From a virus, in IMG/VR virus record IMGVR_UViG_3300045119_000220, positions 1-24,239 of that record: a DNA stretch of 24,239 nucleotides, one strand, 5' to 3'. Position 1 is the stretch's first letter. Every line of letters starts with the position of its first letter. This document shows, in pieces, positions 416 through 20,205 of this stretch. The position numbers and the translations under genes are program-made. The notes under the pieces are model-generated. The model saw only the letters and a program-made list of their open reading frames with translations. It was not told the origin of the DNA and did not search any database.

Positions 416-829
416 TCAGACGAAAGCCGACAGCGGCTCGTCCCCGTCATCCAGGTCACCAGGGTCGTCCGGGATGCCGTCCTCGACGGCATCGGGGATC
501 AGGGTGCGTTCCTCGACGACCATGCCCAACTGGACCAGGGCGTCCAACAACTGGCTGGCGAGTTCGTCTGCGGTGTCGCTGGGGGCGGTGATCACGATCG
601 GGTGGGTGCTCCCGACGATCGAGTTGAAGGTCCATCTCCCGAACTGCTTGGTGAGCAGCCAGGTCTCGCCCTCCTGGGGCCACCCCGAGTTGCCGGACCG
701 GATGCCCATCGGCACGTCGACCGTGATGCCGTTCTCGTCGCGGCAGGAGGCGACCTGTGAGTCGAACTGCACCTCCTCCACGATCACCTTGGCCACGTTT
801 AGCCCGCTCTGGCTGCTCTGGTTCGTCAC
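416..829 (-). CDS. Small OB-fold baseplate spike-type protein
   Basis: Encodes 137 aa from a GTG start that overlaps the hub stop codon (GTGA). Residues about 12-75 are rich in short beta strands with a pattern (VAKVIVEEVQ, ITVDVPMG, GETWLLTKQFGRWTF) like the OB-fold of gp5/gpV-type central spike proteins. The last third is acidic and rich in D, P and E. No beta-helix or needle repeat follows the OB fold, so it is much shorter than classical spikes, and the enzymatic parts sit in the neighbouring hub gene. In a contractile tail this protein would lie at the tip of the hub or act as its adaptor. The fold call is by eye. The first residues (TNQS) are repeated in a tiny ORF upstream of the hub at 4070-4120. 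Confidence 0.6.
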   Translation of the reverse strand: MTNQSSQSGLNVAKVIVEEVQFDSQVASCRDENGITVDVPMGIRSGNSGWPQEGETWLLTKQFGRWTFNSIVGSTHPIVITAPSDTADELASQLLDALVQLGMVVEERTLIPDAVEDGIPDDPGDLDDGDEPLSAFV

Positions 830-870
830 GACAGATCAAGACCTCCTGGCGGCTGGATGCCTTGGTGGGG
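815..870. repeat. 56-bp direct repeat, copy A (downstream end of hub gene)
   Basis: Matches 4106-4161 at about 50 of 56 positions without gaps. Two blocks are identical: 15 bp at 815-829, covering the stop/start overlap, and 29 bp at 842-870. The six mismatches lie in the 12 bases between them. It covers the last codons and stop of the hub gene and the first codons of the next gene. Confidence 0.9.
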
Positions 871-3800
871 GGTGTCGTCGTTGGAGTTGTCGTGACCCGT
901 CTGGTAGGAGCCCGGGAGCGGGGAGCCAACCTGCTTGGACTTGTTGTAGCCACCCGCGATGGGCAGCCCGAACAGGGCGTTGTGCACGTCGGGCTCCCCC
1001 TTGCGGGGCATGTACGCCGGGCTGGAGATGTTCACGGTGGTCTCGAACTTGCCGCCGTCCCCGAAGGACCCGGTGTGGGTGACGGCGATGATGTAGGCCT
1101 GGAAGTCGAAGGAGGGCATCTGGATCAGCATCCCCGGCCAGGCCTCCGGCATGAAGGTGAGCGCGATGTCGGCCCGGTACTGGTAGGCCCACTGGATCAT
1201 GAACGTGTGCACGGCCAGGAAGAACGCCGCTGCCGGGGACACCAGCCCATCAGCGGTGAAGTAGTTGGGCCGGGCTCCGAACCGGTCGTAGACCCAGCGG
1301 GTGAACTCGGTGTGGTTCTCCGGGGGAATCCCGAACAGGGACTGGAGCATCAGGGGGTCGTCGATGTTGGCGATGCCGACCGTCATGGAGGTGTACCCCA
1401 CCTGCCCGAGCACCATGGACTGGATGTCAGCGGAGTCGACGTTGAACTGCACCGCCGTGCCCGCCTGGGTGAACTGGTGGGTGACGAACTGGTCATCGGA
1501 CCACATCACCGTGAAGTCCTTGATCTCGATCGGCTCGACCCTCAGGATCGCGGCGGTCTTCCACAGCCCGTAGTAGTCGGGGAACCAGGCGATCAGGTCG
1601 CCGTTGGGCGCTGAGCAGAACGCCCGCAGGATCGCGTGGAAGCAGTTCATCAGATAGCCCAGCAAGGGCTGGTCGTTGAGCAGGGCATGGGAGCCGACCA
1701 GCGACGCCGCCTCGACGGATGCCGCAGTCCCAGCCGACATGATCGGCGCCCACGGCGCCTCCCCGAACAGGTTCTGGAAGGAGGTCGGGTCGGAACTGAA
1801 CCCGGCGTTGTTCTTCCACTGGTCCACCCCGAGTTTCTGCCACGGGGTCTCGCTGCTGCTGCGGCCACCCACCCCACCACCGGGACCTCCGGAGCCGCTG
1901 CCGTCGGACATGACCCCGTTCTTGATGAAGACCACCGGGTCCACGAGCGTCTTGGCTACGAAGTTGAAGGGGTACTTGCGGACCTCGAAGTGCAGGTGGG
2001 TGCCGGTGACATTGGTACCGGTGGCGCCGACCTCCCCCACCTTGTCGCCCACCTTCACCTGGTCGTTGGTGGCCACGTTGATCTGGGACAGGTGGGCGTA
2101 GATCGCCCAGAAGTCGCTGGTCTGGACCACCACCGTGTTGCCGTAGGAGTCCCCCAGGACCCCGTACCCGCAGGTGACGACCTTGCCTGCCTCGACCGAG
2201 GCCACCGGGTCGCCGGTGCTGACGTAGGGGAAGTCGACCCCGGTGTGGAAGCCCAGGTCCCACCTGTCCCCGGGCTGCCTGAACCCCGTACCGATCCGGT
2301 GGTCCGGAACCGGCCATTGGTTGGTGCCTCCGACCAGGGTCCCGGCTGAGGGGATCGAGCCGCTAGGGCCTTCACCCCCGCCGATCGAGTCGTAGATGAG
2401 GATCGGGATGATGCCCCCGAACGACCAGTCGGAACTGGTGATGATCCCCACGTCGGGGTTGGCGCCGTGGAAGTGGGCGCCCACGGTCTGCTTGCCGTTC
2501 CCCAGGCTGATCTCGACGTGGTGCACCCCTGAGGACTGGCCGTTGCTGGACCTGAACATCAGGGCACCGGGGGTCTTGAGGGCCTGTTCGGTGGACAGGT
2601 GCCTGGTCCAGGCGGCCTGGCTGGCCGAGGTGCGTGGGGTGGTGGTGGCGTGACCGAGGGTGCGCAGCATCACGGCCTGCACGAAGGCAGAGCAGTCGAG
2701 CGGCCCTGGCGGCTCGGCTCCGATGTTCGTCCCGCCGAACAGGTACTGGAGTCTGCTGCCGTACCGGTCGACCAGACCCATGGCATGGCTGAGGAACAAC
2801 TGGCCGGTGCTCTGGCCACGTCCAGCGCTGCTGGTCGTGGTGACGCCGCCGTCGGTCATGGTCCTGCCACCGGTCGTGGTGCCACTGCTGCTGGAGTTGT
2901 CCATCCACGACCTGCTGTTGCCGCTTCCACTCTGCTTGGTCTTGAGCATGTCCCGGACCATGGCGAAGGCGAACTTCTCGTACATGGCATACCGCTCGGG
3001 GTAGGCCGAGACCTGCACGGACTGGCACAGGGGGCCGAACGGAGTCTGCGGCCACCCCGCCTTGCCCATCAGCGCATGGAAGAACAGGGCGGAGGACCGG
3101 TAGGGGTCCATCCGGTCGGCGATGGTGCCCCAGGAGTTGCGCTGCTGGAACAGGCCCACCGAGTCGAGGTCACCCTCCGCCACCTTGTCATGGCGGTAGT
3201 TGATCGACTCCGGGTTTCCTTGACTGGCCTGGTTGAGCAGGCTGGCCTCCACCATGGCCACGGCGATGCCGCAGGCACAGGCCTTGTTGGTGTCGTCCTG
3301 GGAGTGCTTGTCGGACAGCAGGCTCCAGCCGACGCCCATGATCTGCTCGGCACGCTGGCGCTGCACAGGCCCCACCGTGATACCGGCGTACGAGGACTGG
3401 GTGGTGGAGCCGAGGAAGGCGCCCTCGTTGCCGGTGGCGGGATTGTCCAGGCTCGGCAGCGGGTTGCCCCCCGAGGCGGCGTCGGGGTTGATCGAGTTCA
3501 GGATCTGCTCCGAGACGGCCCAGTCGTTACGAGCCCAGAGGGCCGTCCGCTGAGCGAGTTGCAGTGCGACCTGCTTCCACCCCTCGGGGATCAGGCCGAC
3601 GTGGGTGTGGGAGGTGTCCCACCCGACGACCTTCTCCAGGATCGTGTTGATCACGTTGAGAGGCCCCTTGTCGCCTTCGCCACCGACACCGAGAGCATTG
3701 GCGATCATGGTCTTGGTCTCGTAGTACTCGGGGTCCCAGTACCAGTACATGAGCCGCTTGAGGGAGCAGGTGCAACTCAGCGGCACCTCGCTGGGCCAGG

Positions 3801-4065
3801 CCGTCTTGAGCGGGACCGAGTTGAGGTAGCCGGTGAAGGTCTGGAGCCAGGTGACCCGCTTGAGGAAGACCGTGATCCGGTCGTTGGGGGTGAACACACC
3901 GTCGTACTTGCGGCGCACGTTCATCAGCGTGCAGTCGAAGGTCGACACCCCGTCACTACGGCGCTGCATGGTGAAGTTGGTGATGTCCTCCGACACGTCC
4001 ACGGTCGCGTGAGTGTCGGTCTCGATGTAGACCCGGATGCCCGGAGAGTAGATCAACGTAGGCAT
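826..4065 (-). CDS. Baseplate hub with SLT, NlpC/P60 and M23 hydrolase domains
   Basis: A 1079-aa hub protein expected at the tail tip, cutting host peptidoglycan during injection. Order: hub-like beta domain about 1-125; lytic-transglycosylase-like domain about 235-375 with candidate acid E273 and the DSVGLFQQRNSWG signature near 301-313; S/G/T-rich linker about 377-420; NlpC/P60 cysteine peptidase about 422-560 with C458 in DCSAF and H516 in HHVEIS; M23 zinc endopeptidase about 585-715 with H607 and D611 in HTGVD and H690/H692 in THLHFE; glycine-rich linker about 721-738; second hub-like region about 740-1040; Pro/Gly tail. Catalytic residues expected of the three families are present. ATG start at 4065; only a weak purine-rich AAGAAGATG lies upstream, right after a 16-codon ORF, so reinitiation is likely. 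The last residues match those of the upstream gene through a 56-bp DNA repeat. Confidence 0.88.
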   Translation of the reverse strand: MPTLIYSPGIRVYIETDTHATVDVSEDITNFTMQRRSDGVSTFDCTLMNVRRKYDGVFTPNDRITVFLKRVTWLQTFTGYLNSVPLKTAWPSEVPLSCTCSLKRLMYWYWDPEYYETKTMIANALGVGGEGDKGPLNVINTILEKVVGWDTSHTHVGLIPEGWKQVALQLAQRTALWARNDWAVSEQILNSINPDAASGGNPLPSLDNPATGNEGAFLGSTTQSSYAGITVGPVQRQRAEQIMGVGWSLLSDKHSQDDTNKACACGIAVAMVEASLLNQASQGNPESINYRHDKVAEGDLDSVGLFQQRNSWGTIADRMDPYRSSALFFHALMGKAGWPQTPFGPLCQSVQVSAYPERYAMYEKFAFAMVRDMLKTKQSGSGNSRSWMDNSSSSGTTTGGRTMTDGGVTTTSSAGRGQSTGQLFLSHAMGLVDRYGSRLQYLFGGTNIGAEPPGPLDCSAFVQAVMLRTLGHATTTPRTSASQAAWTRHLSTEQALKTPGALMFRSSNGQSSGVHHVEISLGNGKQTVGAHFHGANPDVGIITSSDWSFGGIIPILIYDSIGGGEGPSGSIPSAGTLVGGTNQWPVPDHRIGTGFRQPGDRWDLGFHTGVDFPYVSTGDPVASVEAGKVVTCGYGVLGDSYGNTVVVQTSDFWAIYAHLSQINVATNDQVKVGDKVGEVGATGTNVTGTHLHFEVRKYPFNFVAKTLVDPVVFIKNGVMSDGSGSGGPGGGVGGRSSSETPWQKLGVDQWKNNAGFSSDPTSFQNLFGEAPWAPIMSAGTAASVEAASLVGSHALLNDQPLLGYLMNCFHAILRAFCSAPNGDLIAWFPDYYGLWKTAAILRVEPIEIKDFTVMWSDDQFVTHQFTQAGTAVQFNVDSADIQSMVLGQVGYTSMTVGIANIDDPLMLQSLFGIPPENHTEFTRWVYDRFGARPNYFTADGLVSPAAAFFLAVHTFMIQWAYQYRADIALTFMPEAWPGMLIQMPSFDFQAYIIAVTHTGSFGDGGKFETTVNISSPAYMPRKGEPDVHNALFGLPIAGGYNKSKQVGSPLPGSYQTGHDNSNDDTPHQGIQPPGGLDLS

Positions 4066-4069
4066 TTTT

Positions 4070-4120
4070 TCATCTTCTTGTCCGGGAGTGGTTCTGGATG
4101 AGAGGGCTCTGGTTCGTCAC
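4070..4120 (-). CDS. 16-codon mini-ORF, vestige of a downstream-gene start
   Basis: Reads M-T-N-Q-S-P-L-I-Q-N-H-S-R-T-R-R and stops at 4072-4070. Its GTG start overlaps the stop of the preceding gene in a GTGA junction, exactly as the 137-aa OB-fold gene overlaps the hub stop. The first four amino acids after the start (TNQS) and the underlying DNA are the same as in that gene. It ends four bases before the hub ATG, so ribosomes finishing it could reinitiate on the hub. I read it as a truncated copy of the OB-fold gene's 5' end left by the duplication that made the 56-bp repeat. Whether the peptide matters is unknown; its translation may. Confidence 0.5.
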   Translation of the reverse strand: MTNQSPLIQNHSRTRR

Positions 4121-4161
4121 AGCAGGTCGAAGCCTCCTGGCGGCTGGATGCCTTGGTGGGG
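4106..4161. repeat. 56-bp direct repeat, copy B (upstream of hub gene)
   Basis: Partner of 815-870, in the same orientation, about 3.29 kb away. It covers the last codons and stop of the 218-aa protein gene and the first codons of the vestigial 16-codon ORF. The two copies bracket the whole hub gene. The 29-bp identical block here is 4133-4161 and the 15-bp block is 4106-4120. Confidence 0.9.
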
Positions 4162-4773
4162 TTGGTCCTCACCGTTGTCACCGCTGTCACCGGCACTACC
4201 GCCACTGCCACCGCCACCGAGCGCGGCAGCCTGGATCGCCGGAGTGGCGTCGCCGTGCAACTGGAGGCCGGTGGGGTAGAAGTACTGGCTCTCCGGCTCG
4301 TTGAGCCGAGCGGTCTTGGCACGCACGAAGGAGTGAGTGACCTTGTCGTTCCAGTCGAAGGGCTCCTGTGACACCTCGAAGACCACCATGGGGCGCCAGG
4401 TGATGACCCCCATCCTGTCCCCAAACTCGATCCCCTGGTTCGGTATCCCGACTCGGACGAAGCCCCTCGACGGCACGGTGACCCGCATCTGCGGGGTGAC
4501 GTTGCCCTTGATCGACGGGTTCAGGATGTAGTGGGCGTAGTTCATCATGTAGCGGTTGAACGACCTCCGCTCGGCGTCACCGATCAGGTCGACCTGGATC
4601 GAGAACTTCGACGGAGCGGTCTGGTAGGGGTAGAACGCCCGGCTGGCCCTGGCCTGGGACTCCTCGGCGATCATCTGGAAGCCCGTGGTGATCGTGGAGA
4701 CCCGGACCCGGTAGACCCGGGCCTTGCCGTTGCGGGGGTAGGACAACGTGCAGTTCAAGCCGCGTCTGGCCAC
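4117..4773 (-). CDS. Baseplate/tail protein sharing the hub's C-terminal tail
   Basis: Encodes 218 aa from a GTG overlapping the previous stop (TAGTG). I do not recognise the family. Residues 1-180 look like a compact mixed beta fold (GKARVYRVRVSTITTGF, SKFSIQVDLIGD, GVITWRPMVVFEVS), as in baseplate or distal-tail proteins that ring the tube end. Residues about 185-201 are a flexible G/S/D linker, followed by a short tail with the PHQGIQPPGG core at 205-214. The same core closes the 1079-aa hub protein, and the linker-plus-tail layout is also similar. Position between the tape measure gene and the hub suggests a baseplate role. The assignment is by context only. Confidence 0.6.
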   Translation of the reverse strand: MARRGLNCTLSYPRNGKARVYRVRVSTITTGFQMIAEESQARASRAFYPYQTAPSKFSIQVDLIGDAERRSFNRYMMNYAHYILNPSIKGNVTPQMRVTVPSRGFVRVGIPNQGIEFGDRMGVITWRPMVVFEVSQEPFDWNDKVTHSFVRAKTARLNEPESQYFYPTGLQLHGDATPAIQAAALGGGGSGGSAGDSGDNGEDQPHQGIQPPGGFDLL

Positions 4774-5041: not shown

Positions 5042-5812
5042 TCAGAAGCCTGCGTTGCGTTCGGCCACGACGGCGTTGGTGCCGCTTTCGCCCCCCTGTG
5101 CTCCGGTGACATCCCGGATCGCAGCGAGGTCCCTCTCGGTCTGACCGGTCGTGTTGACCTCCCCGGAGAAGGCGGTGCCGCGTGCCCAGTAGTCGACCCA
5201 GTTGCCGTTGTACTTGGTGGGCTTCCAGCCGATGCCGTCGGAGATCCGGGCGATGTAGTCGTTGATCGCCTGCGACCTGGCCAGGTTGAGGTCGCCGTTG
5301 GTCGCCCCGGCCTGGATCAGTTGGGACGAGGTGTCCTGGACGATGAACAGAGTCAGGCTGTAGCCGTGGGAGAACTTGCCGGTGCTCATCGTGATGGTCC
5401 CGCCATCGGGGTCGGCGAACCCCTTGATGTAGACCTGGAACTTCCAGTTCTTGGGCGGGTAGGTGAACGTGGGTGGCAGGTGCATCTTCCGGTGGACGTT
5501 GCTGTCCGCGCTCTGGCGGTCCATCAGCAGCCTGACCTGACCGGAGAAGCGCTTGGCCAGCCTCCAGGAGCGACCCGGGTGCTCGTGTGGGTCGTCCTTG
5601 GGCGGGGTGGCCCCGACGCCCGCTGAGCGGTCCTCCCCGAACAGGCCGTTGATGGTCATGTCCTCCAGGGTGGCGCCGTTGACCTGCACCACCCGGCCCC
5701 CCACCGTCGGGGTGACCGAGGTGTTGATCTTGAACCCCCAGGCGACCTCCTGGGGGTCGATCCGGAACTGGATGCCGGGACCGTTGGCGAAGCCGAGCGT
5801 GGCGTAGCCCAT
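5042..5812 (-). CDS. Putative baseplate/distal tail protein
   Basis: Encodes 256 aa from an ATG in a TGATG overlap with the tape measure stop. The N-terminal part (GIQFRIDPQEVAWGFKI, VGGRVVQVNGATLEDMTINGLFG) resembles the beta-rich openings of proteins placed right after the tape measure gene, which form the first baseplate ring on the tube. Residues about 120-165 contain another beta stretch (NWKFQVYIKGF, GYSLTLFIVQD). The C-terminal third is more helical and polar (LNLARSQAINDYIARISD) and ends in a flexible tail. No catalytic motif is visible. Function is inferred from gene order only. Confidence 0.6.
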   Translation of the reverse strand: MGYATLGFANGPGIQFRIDPQEVAWGFKINTSVTPTVGGRVVQVNGATLEDMTINGLFGEDRSAGVGATPPKDDPHEHPGRSWRLAKRFSGQVRLLMDRQSADSNVHRKMHLPPTFTYPPKNWKFQVYIKGFADPDGGTITMSTGKFSHGYSLTLFIVQDTSSQLIQAGATNGDLNLARSQAINDYIARISDGIGWKPTKYNGNWVDYWARGTAFSGEVNTTGQTERDLAAIRDVTGAQGGESGTNAVVAERNAGF

Positions 5813-8085
5813 CAGCGAGCACCTCCATAGGCCGGACCCCAGGTGCCACTACCCGGCCCACCGGTGACGTTGGTGTTGTCGGGGGGCTCGGTCTTGTGGC
5901 GCCCGGTGTCCTGGAGCCTGAACCACTTCTTGGCGTCGGGGCTCAGGTCGATGACGCCCTTGAGGCCGGTGACCCCGCCCCCGTCCTTCTTGAACTCCTC
6001 TGGGTGCTCCTTCTTGTACTTGTCGTAGTCCTCGCCGTACTTCTCGGCGTAGCCCTCCTCCTTCTTGGCCTTCCTCATCGCACTCTTCGAGGTGTCGGAG
6101 CCGTAGCCGGTGATGTCGGAGAAGGACTTGCCGTCGCCGACCCTCCTGGCCTCACCGGACTCGGCCTGGCCCTGGAACTTGGTCACCAGGTCCTTGGTGC
6201 TGACCACCCGGTATCCCCCGCCACCGGTGCTGACCTGCCACTTCTCGTCCTTCTGCTCATCCGAACTCAACTTCCGCAGCGTCTCGGTGATGATCCCGGA
6301 GCCGGTCCCGGTCTTGGCCACCATCGCCTTGTAGGCATCAGTGGCCTCGCCGCCGCTCTTGAGGTCCTTGAGGGCCTGCACGTTGTCGGCGGCACTGACG
6401 CCCCCCATTCCGGCCACCTTGGACTTGCCGGTCGAGGTGTTGAACTCGCCCGACTGGACGGCCTGCTCGGCGGTCGTCCGGGCATCGCCCAGGCCCCCCA
6501 ACTCCACGACCAGCCGCATCGTGGCCTCCTCGGGAGACCCGAACTTGGCACCGTCCGGGCCGAACTGGTTGGCCATGGCCAGGAGGGCCTGCCGGTCGAT
6601 GGTGCTGGACAGCGACGGGGTCTGCCAGAACTCCTGGGAGATCTGGGATGAGGTGGTGCTCGGGTCCTGCTCCATCTCCTGCTGCCGCTGCTTCACCCGA
6701 TCCTGGAGCCAGGCGAAGGACGACGGCGGCATCATGTTCTTCATCATCGAGATGAACTGGGCGCTGCTGGAGGCCTGCACCTGCACCGCCCCAGCCGGGG
6801 TCTTGAGCATGCTGGCGATGTTGCCCTGGGTGATCGTCGTCCCGGCTTGGTTCGACATGTACCCGGCCAGGATGTACTGCCCGGCTGCCCCCTCCGGCCC
6901 GGTCAGGGTGGGGGTCTGGTTCACGAACCCGGGACCCAACTGAGCCTGGTTCGACGCCTGGGCGAAGGACAAGCCCAGGGCGTTCTGCCCGATACCGGCT
7001 TCGGTGTTGGCGCTGAACAGGCCCCGGAGGTTCTGGGAGACCACACTCATCGCCACCCCGGAGTCGGCAGCGGTCTTGGTCAACTGCTCCATCTGGTCGT
7101 TGAACTGCTTGAGGCTGCCGCTGCTCAAGGCCGTGTTCTTGTTGATCAACTGGAGGTACTGGAACATCTCGTCGCCACCGGCGCCGTACTGCTTCTTGCC
7201 CTGGTACATGAAGTCCATGACGTCTTTTTGGTCCATCCCACCCCGGAGCCGCGCCGAGTCCGGGGTGAACCCCAGCGCCCGGGTGCTCTTGTAGGCCTGT
7301 GACGCCTCATCCCCGCTCCAGTTCAACCCGTAGCCGACGAACGGGAGTTTCGACCACTCCTCACCGATCCGGGCGCCGAAGGCCTCCATGTGGCTGTCGG
7401 CACCACCCATGCGCCGGTAGTAGTTGTTCTTGTTGATCTGGGACTGGTACTCGTTGCGGAGCGAGTTGGCGACGCTGAGCACCGGGGACTTGCTCTCTGC
7501 CCAGTTGAAGACACGGCTGGACAGCCCGTGGCCGGGAGCGCCGACCAGGCTCATGGACTGGGAGCCACCACCCCTACCGCCGCCGCGACCACGACCCCCA
7601 CGACCTCCACCACTACCGCCGTCATCATCGCCCCCATCACCACCGTCATCATCACGACCGGGGGTCAGACCTACACCACCATCCCCCGTAGTCCGAACGC
7701 CTCCGGCTGGCGGGGCAGAGGGACCCAAGGCTGATGACAGACCAGAGCGAAGACGGGTCGTCCAGCGAGGGGAGCCCTGGTCGGCATCTCCCTCAGCATC
7801 CGGGGCATTGGAGGAGGTCTGTCCAGCCGTCGGGTCGCCCTGCGCCCTGCGCCCGCCGTCGGTCACCAGCCTGTTGTCGCCGCTGGGGGTCTGGACCGAC
7901 GTGGTCTGGCCCACGGTGGCCGAGCGCTTGCCTGCACTCGGCTGCTTCTCGGTGTCCCCGATCAGGGCGGCGTGGATGTTGGTGAGCACGGTCTTCTGCT
8001 CGTCGAGGGCCTCGACGATCTTCTCCAGGGGCTTCAACCCGTTGACGATCTTGGTGCCGAGGTCGAGGTTCTCGGGGTCGGCCAT
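5812..8085 (-). CDS. Putative tape measure protein
   Basis: Encodes 757 aa. I chose the ATG at 8085 because it forms a TGATG overlap with the chaperone stop; a GTG three codons earlier is possible. Residues 1-45 form a probable amphipathic helix or coiled coil (KIVNGLKPLEKIVEALDEQ). About 50-140 are polar and low in complexity. About 144-175 are an extreme D/G then R/G linker. About 185-640 are mostly helical and rich in Q, S, A and M. A Lys/Glu-rich stretch near 677-711 precedes a Pro/Gly tail. It is the longest gene between the chaperones and the baseplate, the standard place of the length-determining tape measure. Against the call: no obvious transmembrane helix, no clear heptad array, and a modest length for a large myovirus. 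Confidence 0.65.
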   Translation of the reverse strand: MADPENLDLGTKIVNGLKPLEKIVEALDEQKTVLTNIHAALIGDTEKQPSAGKRSATVGQTTSVQTPSGDNRLVTDGGRRAQGDPTAGQTSSNAPDAEGDADQGSPRWTTRLRSGLSSALGPSAPPAGGVRTTGDGGVGLTPGRDDDGGDGGDDDGGSGGGRGGRGRGGGRGGGSQSMSLVGAPGHGLSSRVFNWAESKSPVLSVANSLRNEYQSQINKNNYYRRMGGADSHMEAFGARIGEEWSKLPFVGYGLNWSGDEASQAYKSTRALGFTPDSARLRGGMDQKDVMDFMYQGKKQYGAGGDEMFQYLQLINKNTALSSGSLKQFNDQMEQLTKTAADSGVAMSVVSQNLRGLFSANTEAGIGQNALGLSFAQASNQAQLGPGFVNQTPTLTGPEGAAGQYILAGYMSNQAGTTITQGNIASMLKTPAGAVQVQASSSAQFISMMKNMMPPSSFAWLQDRVKQRQQEMEQDPSTTSSQISQEFWQTPSLSSTIDRQALLAMANQFGPDGAKFGSPEEATMRLVVELGGLGDARTTAEQAVQSGEFNTSTGKSKVAGMGGVSAADNVQALKDLKSGGEATDAYKAMVAKTGTGSGIITETLRKLSSDEQKDEKWQVSTGGGGYRVVSTKDLVTKFQGQAESGEARRVGDGKSFSDITGYGSDTSKSAMRKAKKEEGYAEKYGEDYDKYKKEHPEEFKKDGGGVTGLKGVIDLSPDAKKWFRLQDTGRHKTEPPDNTNVTGGPGSGTWGPAYGGAR

Positions 8086-8519
8086 CAGTGCCACTCACCC
8101 GGTCCCTGGAGGTCCTTCTCAGGCACGTCCACCCGGTCATCGGCCATGAACCTCTGGAGCAGGCTCAACTCGTCCTCAGACATCTCCGAGGGCGCCTGCC
8201 ACTCCACTGCGGAGTAGTCGGCCTCGTCCAGTTCCTCCTCGTCCAGCGCATCCAGCCCCTCGGTGGTATCGACCACCTCTCCCGGAGCCTGGGGGAAGTA
8301 GTCGGCGTAGACCTGCTGCGGGTCGACCCCGGCAGAGATCTGGGCCAGCCGGAACTCCTCCACCAGGTGGTGGCCCTTGTCGAGGTTGTCCTGGCGGTGG
8401 AGCAACTCCACACCGATCGCCTGTACCACCGAGAGCCTCCTCCCTTGCAGCAGTCCTCTCCGCTCGGCAAGCCTCAGTCGGTATTCGAGCCAGTCGTCGA
8501 GCCCGTTAGGGCGGATGCT
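8085..8519 (-). CDS. Tail assembly chaperone, -1 frame extension (gpT-like part)
   Basis: Open frame with no stop from the slippery site at 8519 down to the TGA at 8087-8085. It encodes 144 aa after the slip, giving a fusion of about 341 aa with the preceding 197 codons. The peptide entered right after the slip (S-I-R-P-N-G-L-D-D-W-L-E-Y-R) looks like real coding sequence. The rest is acidic (LDALDEEELDEADY), as in many tail chaperone extensions. The upstream frame stops at 8474, so the first 15 codons here overlap it. A GTG at 8429 could start a separate 114-aa protein, but no good ribosome-binding site fits, and a start there would leave coding-like sequence untranslated. The role is to bind tape measure protein during tail assembly; such proteins are usually absent from virions. 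Confidence 0.78.
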   Translation of the reverse strand, partial: SIRPNGLDDWLEYRLRLAERRGLLQGRRLSVVQAIGVELLHRQDNLDKGHHLVEEFRLAQISAGVDPQQVYADYFPQAPGEVVDTTEGLDALDEEELDEADYSAVEWQAPSEMSEDELSLLQRFMADDRVDVPEKDLQGPGEWH

Positions 8520-14641: not shown

Positions 14642-14667
14642 CGTTGCTCCTTCTGGTGGGTGGTCAT
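14638..14667 (-). CDS. Nine-codon coupling mini-ORF
   Basis: Reads M-T-T-H-Q-K-E-Q-R. The start makes a TGATG overlap with the fibre stop, and the TGA overlaps the ATG of the next gene (ATGA), so the gap is filled exactly. The ribosome-binding site of the next gene lies inside it. This is consistent with translational relay from the fibre gene to the small paralogues; it could also be chance. Confidence 0.35.
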   Translation of the reverse strand: MTTHQKEQR

Positions 14668-16787
14668 CACAGTTCGGCAGAGAAGTCCAAGTAGGCCCCG
14701 GCAACCGCTGCCCGAAGCCAGGCTGAGCCGCCTACCGGAGCACCGATGGCCGCAGCCGTGGTGAAGGCCAACTCGACCACATCCGTGTTCCGCTCCATCT
14801 GCAAGAGAGAGGTCGGAGCAGCATTACCGCTTCCGCCGTAGACAAAGAAGGTGGTCCCAGCCGAGGACCCGAAGGTCGGCGGGACACGCATCGGCACAGG
14901 AAGCCGGAAGGGTGCGTAGAAGGAGGTAGCGGTCCAGGCAGTACCTATCGCAGCCGCCGTGTAGGTGGTGGTACCGACCCAGCGGTAGAAGTACCGCTGA
15001 CACCAGGCGAGTTGCTGCTGGACGGGAATCCGCTCGAAGTTCGTCGCGGTCGGCCCCTCCTCCAACTGGACGTCGGCCAGGTGCACCGTCCAGTTCTGGA
15101 TGCCGATGTTGGACGCCCGAGCCGCCTGCGTCGACCCCGCCGAGAGCCAGAAGTTGATGGCCACCCACTCGCTCCCGCTGGTCCCCAGCGTCTTTCCGGA
15201 CACCGCAGGGACCGTGAAGGTCGTGCTGTACTTCGACCACCCGGTGGTGACCTGGATGGGAATCACCGCCGCGAACACAGCAGCAGACGGTGAGCCTCCG
15301 GTGCCGAAGTTCTGCTGGACCTCGATTCCGATCTTGTTCGCGACGCTCCCGTAGGCCCAGAACGACAGGGTGACCTGCTTGCCCGCGAGGGTACGCACAT
15401 CCTCGATCACGCTCTGGAGGACTACGTAGTCACCGGCAGCAGCCGTGTTGGTGACCGCACACTGCGCCTCGTACCTCGCGCCGCCGATGGTGGCTGAGTC
15501 AGTCAGAGAGAGCGTGTTCCGGGTCACGTTGATGAGGTTGAGCGCCGAGACGGCGACTAACCAGCCGTCCAGACCGTAGCCCGTGTTGAACGGTCCGTTC
15601 CCGCGCTGTGCGACCGAGAAGTCCCCGTTGCGCAGCGCGTTGCGGAAGCCGGTCGACCCGATGACTCCGCCGCCACCGCCACTCGACCCGGTGCTGGCGA
15701 TGCCGGTGCCCTCGACGGTGAGCAGGATGCCAGCGTGCCCGCCGCCGTAGTTGTTGTAGATGCTCAACTGGCCGTTGACGACGCCGAGGCTCCGCCACCC
15801 CAGTTTGTACGTCTTGACCGTGCCAGGTGTCAGACCCCGCACGGGCATGGAGACGGTCGTTCTCTCATACCGTGGCCCGGCACCGATGGTGGCGACCGCG
15901 ACGGTCGTGGTCCCTTCACGCACCGTCATCTCGTAGACCCCGGTGCCGGTGAACTCCATCAGCCCAGTGGCCGAGAAGATGATCTCCCCGGAGGAGGGCA
16001 CCGTGAACGTGATGGCCGCATTCGCGGCATCGACGTCGGTGTCAACCCCGGTGGTCGGTGCGACGTACTGGGTGCCGGTCGTGACCTCCTTGAACCCGAG
16101 GAGAGAACTCGTGGTGTCAGCAAGCGCCTTGATGATGAAGGTGACCGCGAGAGTGGGGTGATGCATGGGGACGGTCGTCTGCGTACCGGCCTCAGCCGAG
16201 CCGTAGGCGTTCGAGGTGAAGATCGTGGTGTCCGTACGGAAGTTGACGTCGTTGCCAGACACGCCCCGAGCGAAACGGTCGTTGACACCACCTATCCCAG
16301 CAGTCCCGGAGGGAGCGCCGTGCGCGTGCTTCGGCAACTGCTGCGCAGTCAGCGTGGTCATCTCGTTGCCCCACTTGGTAGCGAGGCCGAAGTTGAGAGC
16401 GGTGCCCTGAGTCGGAACCACTGCACCGACGCCGATCGGAGAGCGCGCCTGGAAGTCAGGCAGGAAGTACGTCGTCCCTGAGTGGGTGCCGAAGGTGTCC
16501 CCCAGAGCCACCGCCAGGTCCGGGTAGGTCGTGGACAGGAACGTGCCACCGTTGCAGATCAGGTAGCCGCCCGGTGGTGTGGCTCCACCCCACATGCTGA
16601 TCGTGCCGACCGGACCGCTGCCGCCGCCGCCACCAGCCCCGGAACCCACGACCGTCTCCACACCCGCCGCATTCAGGGTGTACAACTTCCCGTCACTGGT
16701 CTTGGCGTACAGCCGGACCGCGTCGGAGACCGGGACCGCAGGGGTCGCCGCGACCGAGCGCAGGTCGACGGCTCCATAGGTCCTCAC
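14667..16787 (-). CDS. Tail fibre: collar, C1q-like and carbohydrate-binding-like domains
   Basis: Encodes 706 aa from a GTG in a GTGA overlap with the previous fibre gene; the frame is open further up but only as a shadow of that gene. Order: short adaptor 1-48 (VRLYAKTSDGKLYTLNAAGVE), glycine linker, phage tail collar domain about 58-220 (GTISMWGGATPPGGYLICNG, SPIGVG, LPKHAHG), jelly-roll or C1q/TNF-like region about 238-362, glycine linker, then FRNALRNGDFSVAQRG at 381-396 beginning a carbohydrate-binding-like domain to about 585 that ends VQLEEGPTATNFER. The CQRYFYRW motif at 596-603 and a final beta domain follow. This last combination is common at the tips of phage fibres. It probably binds surface sugars. 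It lacks an obvious virion-anchoring N-terminus. Confidence 0.82.
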   Translation of the reverse strand: MRTYGAVDLRSVAATPAVPVSDAVRLYAKTSDGKLYTLNAAGVETVVGSGAGGGGGSGPVGTISMWGGATPPGGYLICNGGTFLSTTYPDLAVALGDTFGTHSGTTYFLPDFQARSPIGVGAVVPTQGTALNFGLATKWGNEMTTLTAQQLPKHAHGAPSGTAGIGGVNDRFARGVSGNDVNFRTDTTIFTSNAYGSAEAGTQTTVPMHHPTLAVTFIIKALADTTSSLLGFKEVTTGTQYVAPTTGVDTDVDAANAAITFTVPSSGEIIFSATGLMEFTGTGVYEMTVREGTTTVAVATIGAGPRYERTTVSMPVRGLTPGTVKTYKLGWRSLGVVNGQLSIYNNYGGGHAGILLTVEGTGIASTGSSGGGGGVIGSTGFRNALRNGDFSVAQRGNGPFNTGYGLDGWLVAVSALNLINVTRNTLSLTDSATIGGARYEAQCAVTNTAAAGDYVVLQSVIEDVRTLAGKQVTLSFWAYGSVANKIGIEVQQNFGTGGSPSAAVFAAVIPIQVTTGWSKYSTTFTVPAVSGKTLGTSGSEWVAINFWLSAGSTQAARASNIGIQNWTVHLADVQLEEGPTATNFERIPVQQQLAWCQRYFYRWVGTTTYTAAAIGTAWTATSFYAPFRLPVPMRVPPTFGSSAGTTFFVYGGSGNAAPTSLLQMERNTDVVELAFTTAAAIGAPVGGSAWLRAAVAGAYLDFSAEL

Positions 16788-18442
16788 TTCTTCACCACCG
16801 CCGTCAAGAAGTTCGTTGCCACATCGCTGTGCGAGCGCAGCGCGACGGTGTTCAAGTCCACGACCTTCCAGTCCACGTTGACGTTCTCCTTGCTGGCCGC
16901 CTCCTTGACCCACACGCCGACATCCTCGGTGCCCAGCGAATGCGTGATGTTGAGCCACGTCCCAGCGGTCATCGCAGGCACGGGGACCGTGTACGACGCC
17001 GCCCCACTGACCGTCGGGTCGGAAGACTGCACCGCCCGGATGATGAAGTTGATGCCCAGAATCGTGTGGGTGACGTTGGCGGGAGAGCCGCCACCGATGT
17101 ACGTCGTGGGAACGCCAGACGAACCGGCGCTGTTGCTCCACTGCACGATGGTGGTCCCGTTCGCCCAGAACGGGCCACCCGCTTGCGTACCACCGTTGGT
17201 GACATTCTGGATGTGGGCGTGAGAGGGCATCTCAGCGACAGTCTGGGTGTGCCTGCTCTCACCGAACTTCTGACCGAGCGAGAAGGCGTACCCGGAGCCG
17301 TCATCCGGTGAGGGTGTGCCGGTACCGATCGGTGAGCGTCCCCGAAAGTCCGGCAGGTAGTAGTTGGTCCCGGAGTGGGTGCCGTAGGTGTCGCCGAGCA
17401 GCGTCGCCAGATCCGGGTAGGTCACCGAGGAGAACGTGCTGCCGTTGCAGATCAGGTATCCAGCCGGAGGTGTGGTGACAGGCCACATGTCGATCGTGCC
17501 GACCGGAGCCCCTCCGCCACCACTACCGATGGGCTTCCAGGCGCCACCACTCAGGATGTAGGTGGCTCCGGTGTCGGACTCGTAGATGATGTGGCCGTCG
17601 GACAGGCCGAACAGGCCCGGTCGGGTGGTCGAGGTGCAGAGCGTCTTGTTGTCGAGCGGTTGCCACTGCGCGGTGTCCCAGGCCTGCATGACCTTGTTGG
17701 TCTGGTTGTGGAACAGGTGACCTGCACCGGTTGGGTTCGGCGCCTGCAACGACCCGGCCTGATCGACGAAGGTGGCGACACGCCATGCCTGGGCGTCGGT
17801 TCCCAGCGTGGTGACCACCTGCAACTGGGTCATCATGTGGAACCGCCAGGCGTTTCCCTCGGTGATCTTCACCCATGAGCCACGCGCCACGGCTGCTGCG
17901 GTGTTGGCGTCGGAAGCACGCGCCCAAGCCCCGGCAGCCACCACGTAGATGCCGTTGTCGGCTGTGGTGGTCTGGTTGCGCACCAACACCCGATCACCGG
18001 CGACCAGGGCGACACCGTCGACGGTCTGGGTGCCGGACAGGGTGATGTTCGCGGTAGTCGCCGCTCGGACCGTTGCTCGCTGCAACGAGTCACCACCTCG
18101 ACTGTCTACATAGTCCTTGGTGGTGTAGTGAGTGGGATCTGTGGGCGGCTGTCCCGAGATCGGGTGGTTAGCCAGGATGCTGTAGCCAGGACCCTGAGAA
18201 CTGAGTCGGAGGGTCCCGTAGTCACCTGAGATCTTCGCGCCGTTCCAACTGATCGGGACGTCAGAATCGAAGTACAGGACCCCGGTCATGTAGTCGCCCG
18301 TGGTATTGACATAGAGCGAGTCCGCAGTCGCCTGGCTCAGGCCACCACCTGCCTTGCTGTCGACGTACTGCTTGGTGGCAGCCTCCATCGCTGCTACCGG
18401 ATCAGCCGGTAGCACGACGGGGGTCAGGAACTTCTTGCTCAC
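16784..18442 (-). CDS. Tail fibre with phage tail collar domain
   Basis: Encodes 552 aa from a GTG overlapping the upstream stop (GTGA). It begins M-S-K-K-F-L-T, like the M-A-R-K-F-L-T of the fibre upstream, and has AATKQYVDSK near 21-30 and TTKDYVD near 107-113, the N-K-Q-Y-V-D type segments seen in many fibres. A beta repeat domain at about 122-225 (VDGVALVAGDRVLVRNQTT, DNGIYVV) is also present in the upstream gene. The tail collar domain is at about 313-470 (GTIDMWPVTTPPAGYLICNG, DFRGRSPIGTG, MPSHAH). The last 75 residues form a beta domain related to the ends of two other fibres here. The collar motif closely matches that of the next gene. Likely receptor-binding or fibre shaft protein. 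Confidence 0.85.
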   Translation of the reverse strand: MSKKFLTPVVLPADPVAAMEAATKQYVDSKAGGGLSQATADSLYVNTTGDYMTGVLYFDSDVPISWNGAKISGDYGTLRLSSQGPGYSILANHPISGQPPTDPTHYTTKDYVDSRGGDSLQRATVRAATTANITLSGTQTVDGVALVAGDRVLVRNQTTTADNGIYVVAAGAWARASDANTAAAVARGSWVKITEGNAWRFHMMTQLQVVTTLGTDAQAWRVATFVDQAGSLQAPNPTGAGHLFHNQTNKVMQAWDTAQWQPLDNKTLCTSTTRPGLFGLSDGHIIYESDTGATYILSGGAWKPIGSGGGGAPVGTIDMWPVTTPPAGYLICNGSTFSSVTYPDLATLLGDTYGTHSGTNYYLPDFRGRSPIGTGTPSPDDGSGYAFSLGQKFGESRHTQTVAEMPSHAHIQNVTNGGTQAGGPFWANGTTIVQWSNSAGSSGVPTTYIGGGSPANVTHTILGINFIIRAVQSSDPTVSGAASYTVPVPAMTAGTWLNITHSLGTEDVGVWVKEAASKENVNVDWKVVDLNTVALRSHSDVATNFLTAVVKK

Positions 18443-20205
18443 CCAGTGACCACGATCCTGTGCTCGCCAGCCGCAGTCGCCACGTTGAAGCGGACGGTCA
18501 CATTGTTGGCGTCGGTACGCTCCACGTCGCAGTCGACAGTGTCCCAGGGCGTGGTGTTGCGGTAGACGTTGACGATGACGTCACGAGTGTTGAAGGCGTG
18601 GTTGACCACGGTGGACGTGGCAGCCGCTGTGGATGCCGAGATGACCCGGACGCTGGCTGTGTGCGTGTGATCGGACTTCGCTGCGGTGACCGCCGACCCG
18701 GTGCCCGCGTAGTTCACGCTCAGCAGGTCAGCGGCTGCGGTCAGCGATCCATCGGTGACGACGTTGATGGTCTGCCCGACCTGGGTCAGGCCGTTGCCTG
18801 CGTTGACCGAGCCCATGGAGGAGAACTGGGTCCAGGTGATCGCGGTGGTGCCCAGGGTGCCGCCCTGGTCGGCGGTGCAGACCCAGCCGGTCTCGGCCTG
18901 GTTGGAGCCCTGCTCGACAAACACGAACGCACCCGGAAACTCTGCCCAGGTGTCCAGGTCGGTCGCACGAACCCAAGTACCGTTAGAGCCCGATCCGACT
19001 GTCTGAACCGTGTAGATGCCGTTCTGCGACATGGTCGTTTGGTCTTTGACCAGCACCCGGTCGTTGACGACCAACGCGATGCCGTCGAGGGTCAACGGAG
19101 TACCAGTCGCCAGGTTGGCAATGTTTCCGGTGGTAGCCGCATGCACCGACTGCTTGGCGTCCAGGCCCTGAGCCACACCGTCGACGTACTGCTTGTTCGC
19201 AGCATCGGTGGTGGCGATCGGGGTCAGCACGTTGCGCACCAACTGACCGTTCATGTCGACGCTGTTGATCGCGACGTTGATCATGTCCAGGGTCCAGTTG
19301 CCGGGGATCGCCTGGCCCCCCAGGTTCCCTAGTGTGCGCATCGACGGGGTGGCGTTCGCACCGTCCTTGTTGGCCGCCGCGATGTCACCGTGGACGATCG
19401 TGCCGTCCAGGATCGCGGCGCTGGTGACCTTCCCTACCCCGATGGTCGGGTTGGGGTAGGTGCCAGTCAGGTCGCCACCGGCTGCACCAGAGGGAGCCCG
19501 TGCGTCGGTGAACCGGCTGTCGGCACCGGACGCGGCCTGGGTGGCTCCGGTGCCGATCGTGCGCAGCGACGGGACCGCGACGGCGCCGTCCTTGTTGGCG
19601 GCGTTCACGTCGGCGTCGGTGATGGTGCCGTCGAGGATGTGGTTGGAGGTGACCTTGCCCGCAGCGATCGTGGGGTTCGGGTAGGTGCCGGTCAGGTCTC
19701 CACCAGCCGCGCCGGAGGGGGGCAGTGTCGTGGGGAGCACCCCGGGTGCCAGGTCGCCAGCCACGATCGTGCCGTCGGCGATGTGGCTGGAGGTGACCTT
19801 CCCGACCCCGAAGTTCGGGTTGGGGTAGGTGCCGATCAGGTCGCCGCCAGCCGGACCACCCGGCAGGGCGGTGATCGAGGTGTGGGCGGCGTTGTCGTGG
19901 AGGGGGTTGCCGTGCTTGTGGTCGTTGCGGGCCACCGTGCCCCCGGCGCCGTCCGAGGCAACACCGCCGAACGTGGTCTCTGAGGAGACCGCCCCGAACC
20001 CCGGGAACGCCGAGGACCCGCCCGCCGCACTGATCCAGGACGGCGTACCGCCGCCCACCTTGCACCAGTAGAGGGTGCTGTCGGTGGTGTTGAAGTACAA
20101 CTGGCCGACGACCGGGTTGGCCGGTGCACCGGTCAGGTTCTGGACGACGGCGTTCTGGACCTCGTTCTTCCCCATGTCCAGGTGGGTCAGGAACTTCCGT
20201 GCCAT
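18439..20205 (-). CDS. Repeat-containing tail fibre protein
   Basis: Encodes 588 aa from the ATG at 20205; GAGGAG eight bases upstream overlaps the previous stop TAG. The N-terminus MARKFLTHLDMGKNEVQNAVVQNL and GQLYFNTTDSTLYWC near 34-48 are typical of actinophage minor tail proteins. Three copies of a GGDLxGTYPNPxxxxGKVTSxxIxDGTI repeat lie at about 117-149, 165-197 and 239-271. Then ATTDAANKQYVDG near 331-343 introduces a beta repeat domain (LDGIALVVNDRVLVKDQTT, NGIYTVQT) shared with the downstream fibre. The SDHTHT stretch and a beta domain to the end (VVNHAFNTRDVIVNVYRN) close the protein. It is probably a trimeric fibre, with the repeats forming the shaft. The receptor is unknown. Confidence 0.82.
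   Translation of the reverse strand: MARKFLTHLDMGKNEVQNAVVQNLTGAPANPVVGQLYFNTTDSTLYWCKVGGGTPSWISAAGGSSAFPGFGAVSSETTFGGVASDGAGGTVARNDHKHGNPLHDNAAHTSITALPGGPAGGDLIGTYPNPNFGVGKVTSSHIADGTIVAGDLAPGVLPTTLPPSGAAGGDLTGTYPNPTIAAGKVTSNHILDGTITDADVNAANKDGAVAVPSLRTIGTGATQAASGADSRFTDARAPSGAAGGDLTGTYPNPTIGVGKVTSAAILDGTIVHGDIAAANKDGANATPSMRTLGNLGGQAIPGNWTLDMINVAINSVDMNGQLVRNVLTPIATTDAANKQYVDGVAQGLDAKQSVHAATTGNIANLATGTPLTLDGIALVVNDRVLVKDQTTMSQNGIYTVQTVGSGSNGTWVRATDLDTWAEFPGAFVFVEQGSNQAETGWVCTADQGGTLGTTAITWTQFSSMGSVNAGNGLTQVGQTINVVTDGSLTAAADLLSVNYAGTGSAVTAAKSDHTHTASVRVISASTAAATSTVVNHAFNTRDVIVNVYRNTTPWDTVDCDVERTDANNVTVRFNVATAAGEHRIVVTG
19393..19857 (-). repeat. Three in-frame fibre repeats (GTYPNP type)
   Basis: Three in-frame units of about 33 aa lie within the 588-aa fibre gene at residues 117-149, 165-197 and 239-271. 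They are separated by spacers of 15 and 41 residues. Each has GGDL-x-GTYPNP followed by G-K-V-T-S and D-G-T-I. The second and third are more alike than the first. Confidence 0.85.

Follow-up and report, generated by a model that had tools for sequence, protein, structure and literature searches.

This study focused on a single large gene in a metagenomic virus record, the whole analysed stretch of which (24,239 bases) is referred to here as the window. On the favoured account as a whole, its mode of action included, which has a probability of roughly 0.8, the 1079-aa product is a gp27/gp44-like baseplate hub from a phage with a contractile tail, a distant relative of Bixzunavirus and Myrnavirus, and it carries a cassette of three enzyme domains: a GH184-type muramidase, an NlpC/P60 (C40) peptidase and an M23 metallopeptidase. 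Hub identity, the three families, their catalytic residues, the rarity of the combination and its recurrence on a second contig are all computed results.

Hub Identity and Gene Neighbourhood

The gene occupies positions 826-4065 of the minus strand, begins with ATG, and specifies 1079 aa plus a stop codon in a frame that is open throughout. The sequence-only reading had placed the protein exactly there, leaving the strand unstated, and all of the catalytic residues that it named are present. The choice of start codon is supported by the corresponding hub of a second contig (L098, described below), which also begins MPTLIYSPGI.

Both ends of the chain resemble tail hubs in sequence and in fold. 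The N-terminal half (aa 1-200; 3466-4065, minus strand) and the C-terminal half (aa 776-1020; 1006-1740, minus strand) each matched 211 phage records of the same make-up, namely Mycobacterium, Gordonia, Rhodococcus and Eggerthella, and the protein matched the PHROG family phrog_2810 (virion structural protein) with an E value of 1e-108; in the C-terminal half this match covers aa 784-1017. Structure prediction of the full chain, a check that the sequence-only reading had itself proposed, gave a mean pLDDT of 70 from a 48-sequence alignment, with values of 80-97 across most of the hub halves, GH184 and C40 (mostly >90 at aa 11-110), while the M23 domain was resolved when modelled alone. Foldseek searches with the hub part recovered Mu gp44, MuSo2, T4 gp27, the spikes of contractile injection systems, and the R-pyocin and diffocin hubs; the matches to 1wru, 3cdd, 1k28 and 8v3w had E values of about 1e-3 to 2e-5 and were partial, with TM scores by target of about 0.2-0.4. 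The proposal that three hydrolase domains lie between two hub-like halves is borne out. By analogy with known hubs, three copies per baseplate would be expected.

Gene order in the window runs from the sheath through a virion structural protein, a tail assembly chaperone, an ORF at 5812-8094 and small ORFs to the hub and a baseplate protein (phrog_2669), and the position of the hub in this tail operon is that of Myrna gp132. No family match was found for the ORF at 5812-8094, for which a tape measure label rests on place and length. Further along, at 14667-20205, three large tail-fibre-like genes stand in a row, all matching phrog_27782, which suggests serial duplication or mosaic fibres.

All cultured relatives of the hub infect Mycobacterium, Gordonia, Rhodococcus or Eggerthella, so an actinobacterial host, as had been supposed earlier, is likely for the virus of this 24-kb metagenomic record.

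The Three Enzyme Domains

The first domain spans aa 235-375 (2941-3363, minus strand). Residues 258-366 matched GH184 muramidases of known crystal structure (8b2h, E 1.7e-23; 8b2e, E 1e-15), and the model of the domain agreed with these structures at TM 0.90 and 0.88, respectively. In the alignment with 8b2e, Glu41 corresponds to E273 (3247-3249, minus strand) and Asp66 to D299; Glu41 of KsGH184 is essential, as shown by the mutation E41A (PMC10394673). E273 is kept in 36 of 48 aligned hubs, with a gap in 11 others. The sequence-only reading had called this a lytic-transglycosylase-like domain with E273 as its key residue, and while a predicted glycan-cutting domain and the residue both stand, the affiliation does not: residues 258-366 had no Pfam match, the SLT Pfam models gave no hit at E 0.1, and a classical SLT identity was rejected in favour of GH184. 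By sequence and predicted fold, then, the domain belongs with the GH184-type muramidases and not with the classical SLT transglycosylases, and hydrolysis is consequently the better guess for its chemistry. That it nevertheless acts as a lytic transglycosylase, leaving 1,6-anhydro ends, would fit the helical, lysozyme-like fold, in which one Glu is essential, and the true SLT_3 domain found in the same slot of the relatives Rhodococcus E3 and Finch, but it is unlikely given that GH184 is closest by both sequence and fold and that members of this family have been assayed as muramidases (PMC10394673).

The second domain, an NlpC/P60 (C40) peptidase, covers aa 423-560 (2386-2799, minus strand). 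Pfam NLPC_P60 matched at residues 440-525 (E 2.5e-6), and at 27.8 bits against a cut-off of 23 this is the weakest of the three domain matches by sequence. It nevertheless clears the threshold, all three scores lie far beyond chance, and the domain is conserved among related hubs. The assignment is supported by the family, since 39 of the 48 hubs match NLPC_P60 and the two residues named beforehand, C458 and H516, are nearly invariant (43 and 44 of 48); the presumed third residue of the Cys-His-(His/polar) site, H531, is more variable (26 of 48).

The third domain is an M23 metallopeptidase at aa 586-715 (1921-2310, minus strand), and here the Pfam match was strong: Peptidase_M23 at 606-697 scored 80 bits (E 1.5e-22), where the cut-off is 28.7. 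It was left unresolved in the full-chain AlphaFold model because the other 47 rows of the alignment lack M23; modelled alone from 51 M23 sequences it reached a pLDDT of 91 and a pTM of 0.87, and this model matched M23 structures with E values down to 5e-10, among them DipM, EnpA, LytM and lysostaphin. The HxxxD and HxH motifs of the zinc and catalytic site are both present. The earlier assignment of an M23 endopeptidase with H607, D611 and H692 is therefore upheld by the Pfam match, the fold and the retention of these residues in L098. A non-catalytic role, in which M23 would bind peptidoglycan or brace the structure and leave the cutting of the wall to the muramidase and NlpC/P60 alone, is brought to mind by close fold matches to LytM domains that have lost catalysis (EnvC) and to DipM, described as a coordinator. 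It is rather improbable, however, as active enzymes (lysostaphin, LytM, EnpA) match too, and the full set of H607, D611, H690 and H692 is found in both the window and L098 despite a domain identity of only about 46%.

Recurrence and Rarity of the Three-Enzyme Hub

A second hub with the same order, GH184-C40-M23, was recovered from a separate 81-kb contig, IMGVR_UViG_3300037193_001894 (L098). Like the window, it is a metagenomic contig without an isolate. Identity between the two proteins is 57% in the N-terminal hub half, 51% in GH184, 54% in C40, 46% in M23 and 58% in the C-terminal hub half, and E273, D299, C458, H516, H531, H607, D611, H690 and H692 are identical in both; the linkers and the C-terminus differ.

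The rarity of the architecture was gauged among 97 complete, distinct hubs, the window included, taken from profile scans of viral contigs; the domain counts rest on custom-built profiles, by which diverged or other domains may be missed. GH184 plus C40 was the arrangement in 67 hubs, C40 alone occurred in 16, and seven lacked all four of the domain types that were looked for. Two carried SLT_3 only, one SLT_3 plus C40, one C40 together with an intein-interrupted GH184, and one M23 without GH184 or C40. All three enzymes were found in just two of the 97, the window and L098, so the view that a set of three chemically distinct hydrolases on a single chain is unusual proved well founded. A targeted scan for further three-enzyme hubs returned the L098 contig again and no third case, isolated phages had no single place covering 80% of the three-enzyme region, a scan of genome contigs found no integrated relatives, and no tail protein with three lytic domains was found in the (mostly open-access) literature.

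Several candidates for the same architecture were set aside. One hub (L175:5293-9843) owes its extra length to an intein (Intein_splicing, LAGLIDADG_3) at about aa 672-966, inside its GH184 domain, and another (L157) has GH184 and C40 alone. Two distant hubs combine a GH73-like glucosaminidase, below the Pfam cut-off in each, with either a weak C40 (L179:5977-9759) or M23 (L182:5989-9606, a protein also present on three other contigs).

The hub gene region of the window is flanked by a direct repeat of 65 nt (85%; 815-879 and 4106-4170), with one copy at the 3' end of the hub gene and the other at the 3' end of its upstream neighbour. Each copy takes in the opening bases of the gene that follows, and the two proteins both end in ..PHQGIQPPGG(L/F)DL.; the repeat has the look of a recombination junction. 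The C-terminal tail of the hub (aa 1044-1079; 829-936, minus strand) has a pLDDT of <50, and its last part is similar to the tail encoded by the upstream gene. Such a repeat at both ends, and the finding of just two examples, could be taken as signs of chimeric assembly or of a fusion that is degenerating. This interpretation is very improbable: the reading frame is open throughout, and the independent L098 contig has the same order at 46-58% identity per domain with every active-site residue kept, which argues that the architecture is real and maintained rather than an artefact of assembly.

Relatives of the Hub and Origin of the Cassette

In the cultured relatives Myrna, Phabba, I3, Pupper and Skog, GH184 followed by NlpC/P60 sits at the same site of the hub. 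These two enzymes are the standard load of the family, which means that only M23 has been added. The sequence-only reading had called three hydrolases in one hub unusual. Judged by sequence, the window hub enlarges a known two-enzyme device, with one added M23 domain as its new part. In the proposed history, M23 would have joined a hub that already carried two enzymes, in the line that includes the window and L098.

The hub halves and the C40 domain of the window have their nearest relatives in an uncultivated clade (L016-L047), and the nearest M23 domains in isolated phages are those of Streptomyces phage tape-measure proteins. It was also considered whether GH184 had been swapped in from a Myrna-like hub, to which best matches and quick trees lean, but descent with the hub was not rejected (AU test, p 0.32).

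Elsewhere in the family, the hub of Rhodococcus phage E3 carries SLT_3 plus NlpC/P60, that of Finch has SLT_3 and then a segment with no Pfam hit that looks M15-like by eye, and one hub (L060) has VanY. The hub of Eggerthella phage LE2-3 (L013:5281-7837) is divided between neighbouring genes, with LE23_104 for the N half and LE23_105 for the C half, and the split adjoins the point where the enzymes sit in other hubs. Myrna gp132 (L007:6315-9206) is a tail hub labelled 'LysA' in its record; a published endolysin survey gives gp243 as the Myrna endolysin, and the label is probably a misannotation caused by the hydrolase domains.

Proposed Mechanism and Meaning

The activity of the domains, the bonds cut and the order of events are what we infer, as is the host. 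The best-understood analogue is the diffocin hub-hydrolase, in which two enzyme lobes, a transglycosylase and NlpC/P60, lie against the baseplate wedge until contraction and are proposed to be set free then to break down the wall during spike drilling (PMC10996793). The enzymes of the window hub may likewise be parked on the baseplate, to be released into the wall upon sheath contraction, where they would make a local breach through which the tube can pass. From family chemistry, GH184 would cut the glycan strand, NlpC/P60 would cleave inside the stem peptide, and M23 would sever the cross-link or cross-bridge; by analogy, a hub trimer would present the wall with nine active sites. The long low-confidence linkers of the AlphaFold model (aa 380-417, and aa 716-761 after the M23 domain) would fit flexible tethering of the enzymes.

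A broader possibility, put forward tentatively and somewhat doubtful as it stands, is that the three complementary enzymes act as one unit on glycan, stem peptide and cross-link, in an exchangeable tool slot that tracks the cross-link chemistry of the host. Judged by the relatives, the site between the hub halves is a swappable slot, with GH184, SLT_3 or GH73-like domains in front and C40, VanY or M23 behind, and such a slot would offer a testable link between the wall-cutting tools of phages and host wall chemistry. The window hub may also represent a ready multi-enzyme lysin for actinobacterial walls.

Comparison with Other Multi-Enzyme Tail Proteins

The window hub extends two-enzyme 'scissors' hubs of the diffocin and Myrna type to three enzymes. 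Its hub halves, place in the operon and insertion point for GH184-NlpC/P60 are those of the Ceeclamvirinae PHROG 2810 hubs (Mycobacterium phages Myrna gp132, I3 gp141 and Phabba) and of Gordonia phages Pupper (gp123) and Skog (gp186), but these lack M23 and are about 25-33% identical to it. The diffocin hub-hydrolase CD1368 (8v3w) similarly joins a gp27-like hub, a glycan cutter and NlpC/P60 on one chain, with action proposed at contraction, but it has two enzymes, its glycan cutter is an MltA-type transglycosylase, and the enzymes are appended C-terminally rather than placed between hub halves. A Kochikohdavirus tail protein has NlpC/P60 plus M23 (PMC10194240). The tail-knob enzyme gp13 of phi29 unites lysozyme-like and LytM-like domains in one tail protein (PMC10394673); unlike the window protein, it has two domains, is not a hub and is not assigned to GH184. 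Streptomyces phages Coruscant and Sham combine GH184 and M23 in one chain, but in tape-measure proteins, and Staphylococcus phage SA1 has lysozyme, NlpC/P60 and M23 in its tail, split over two tape-measure proteins.
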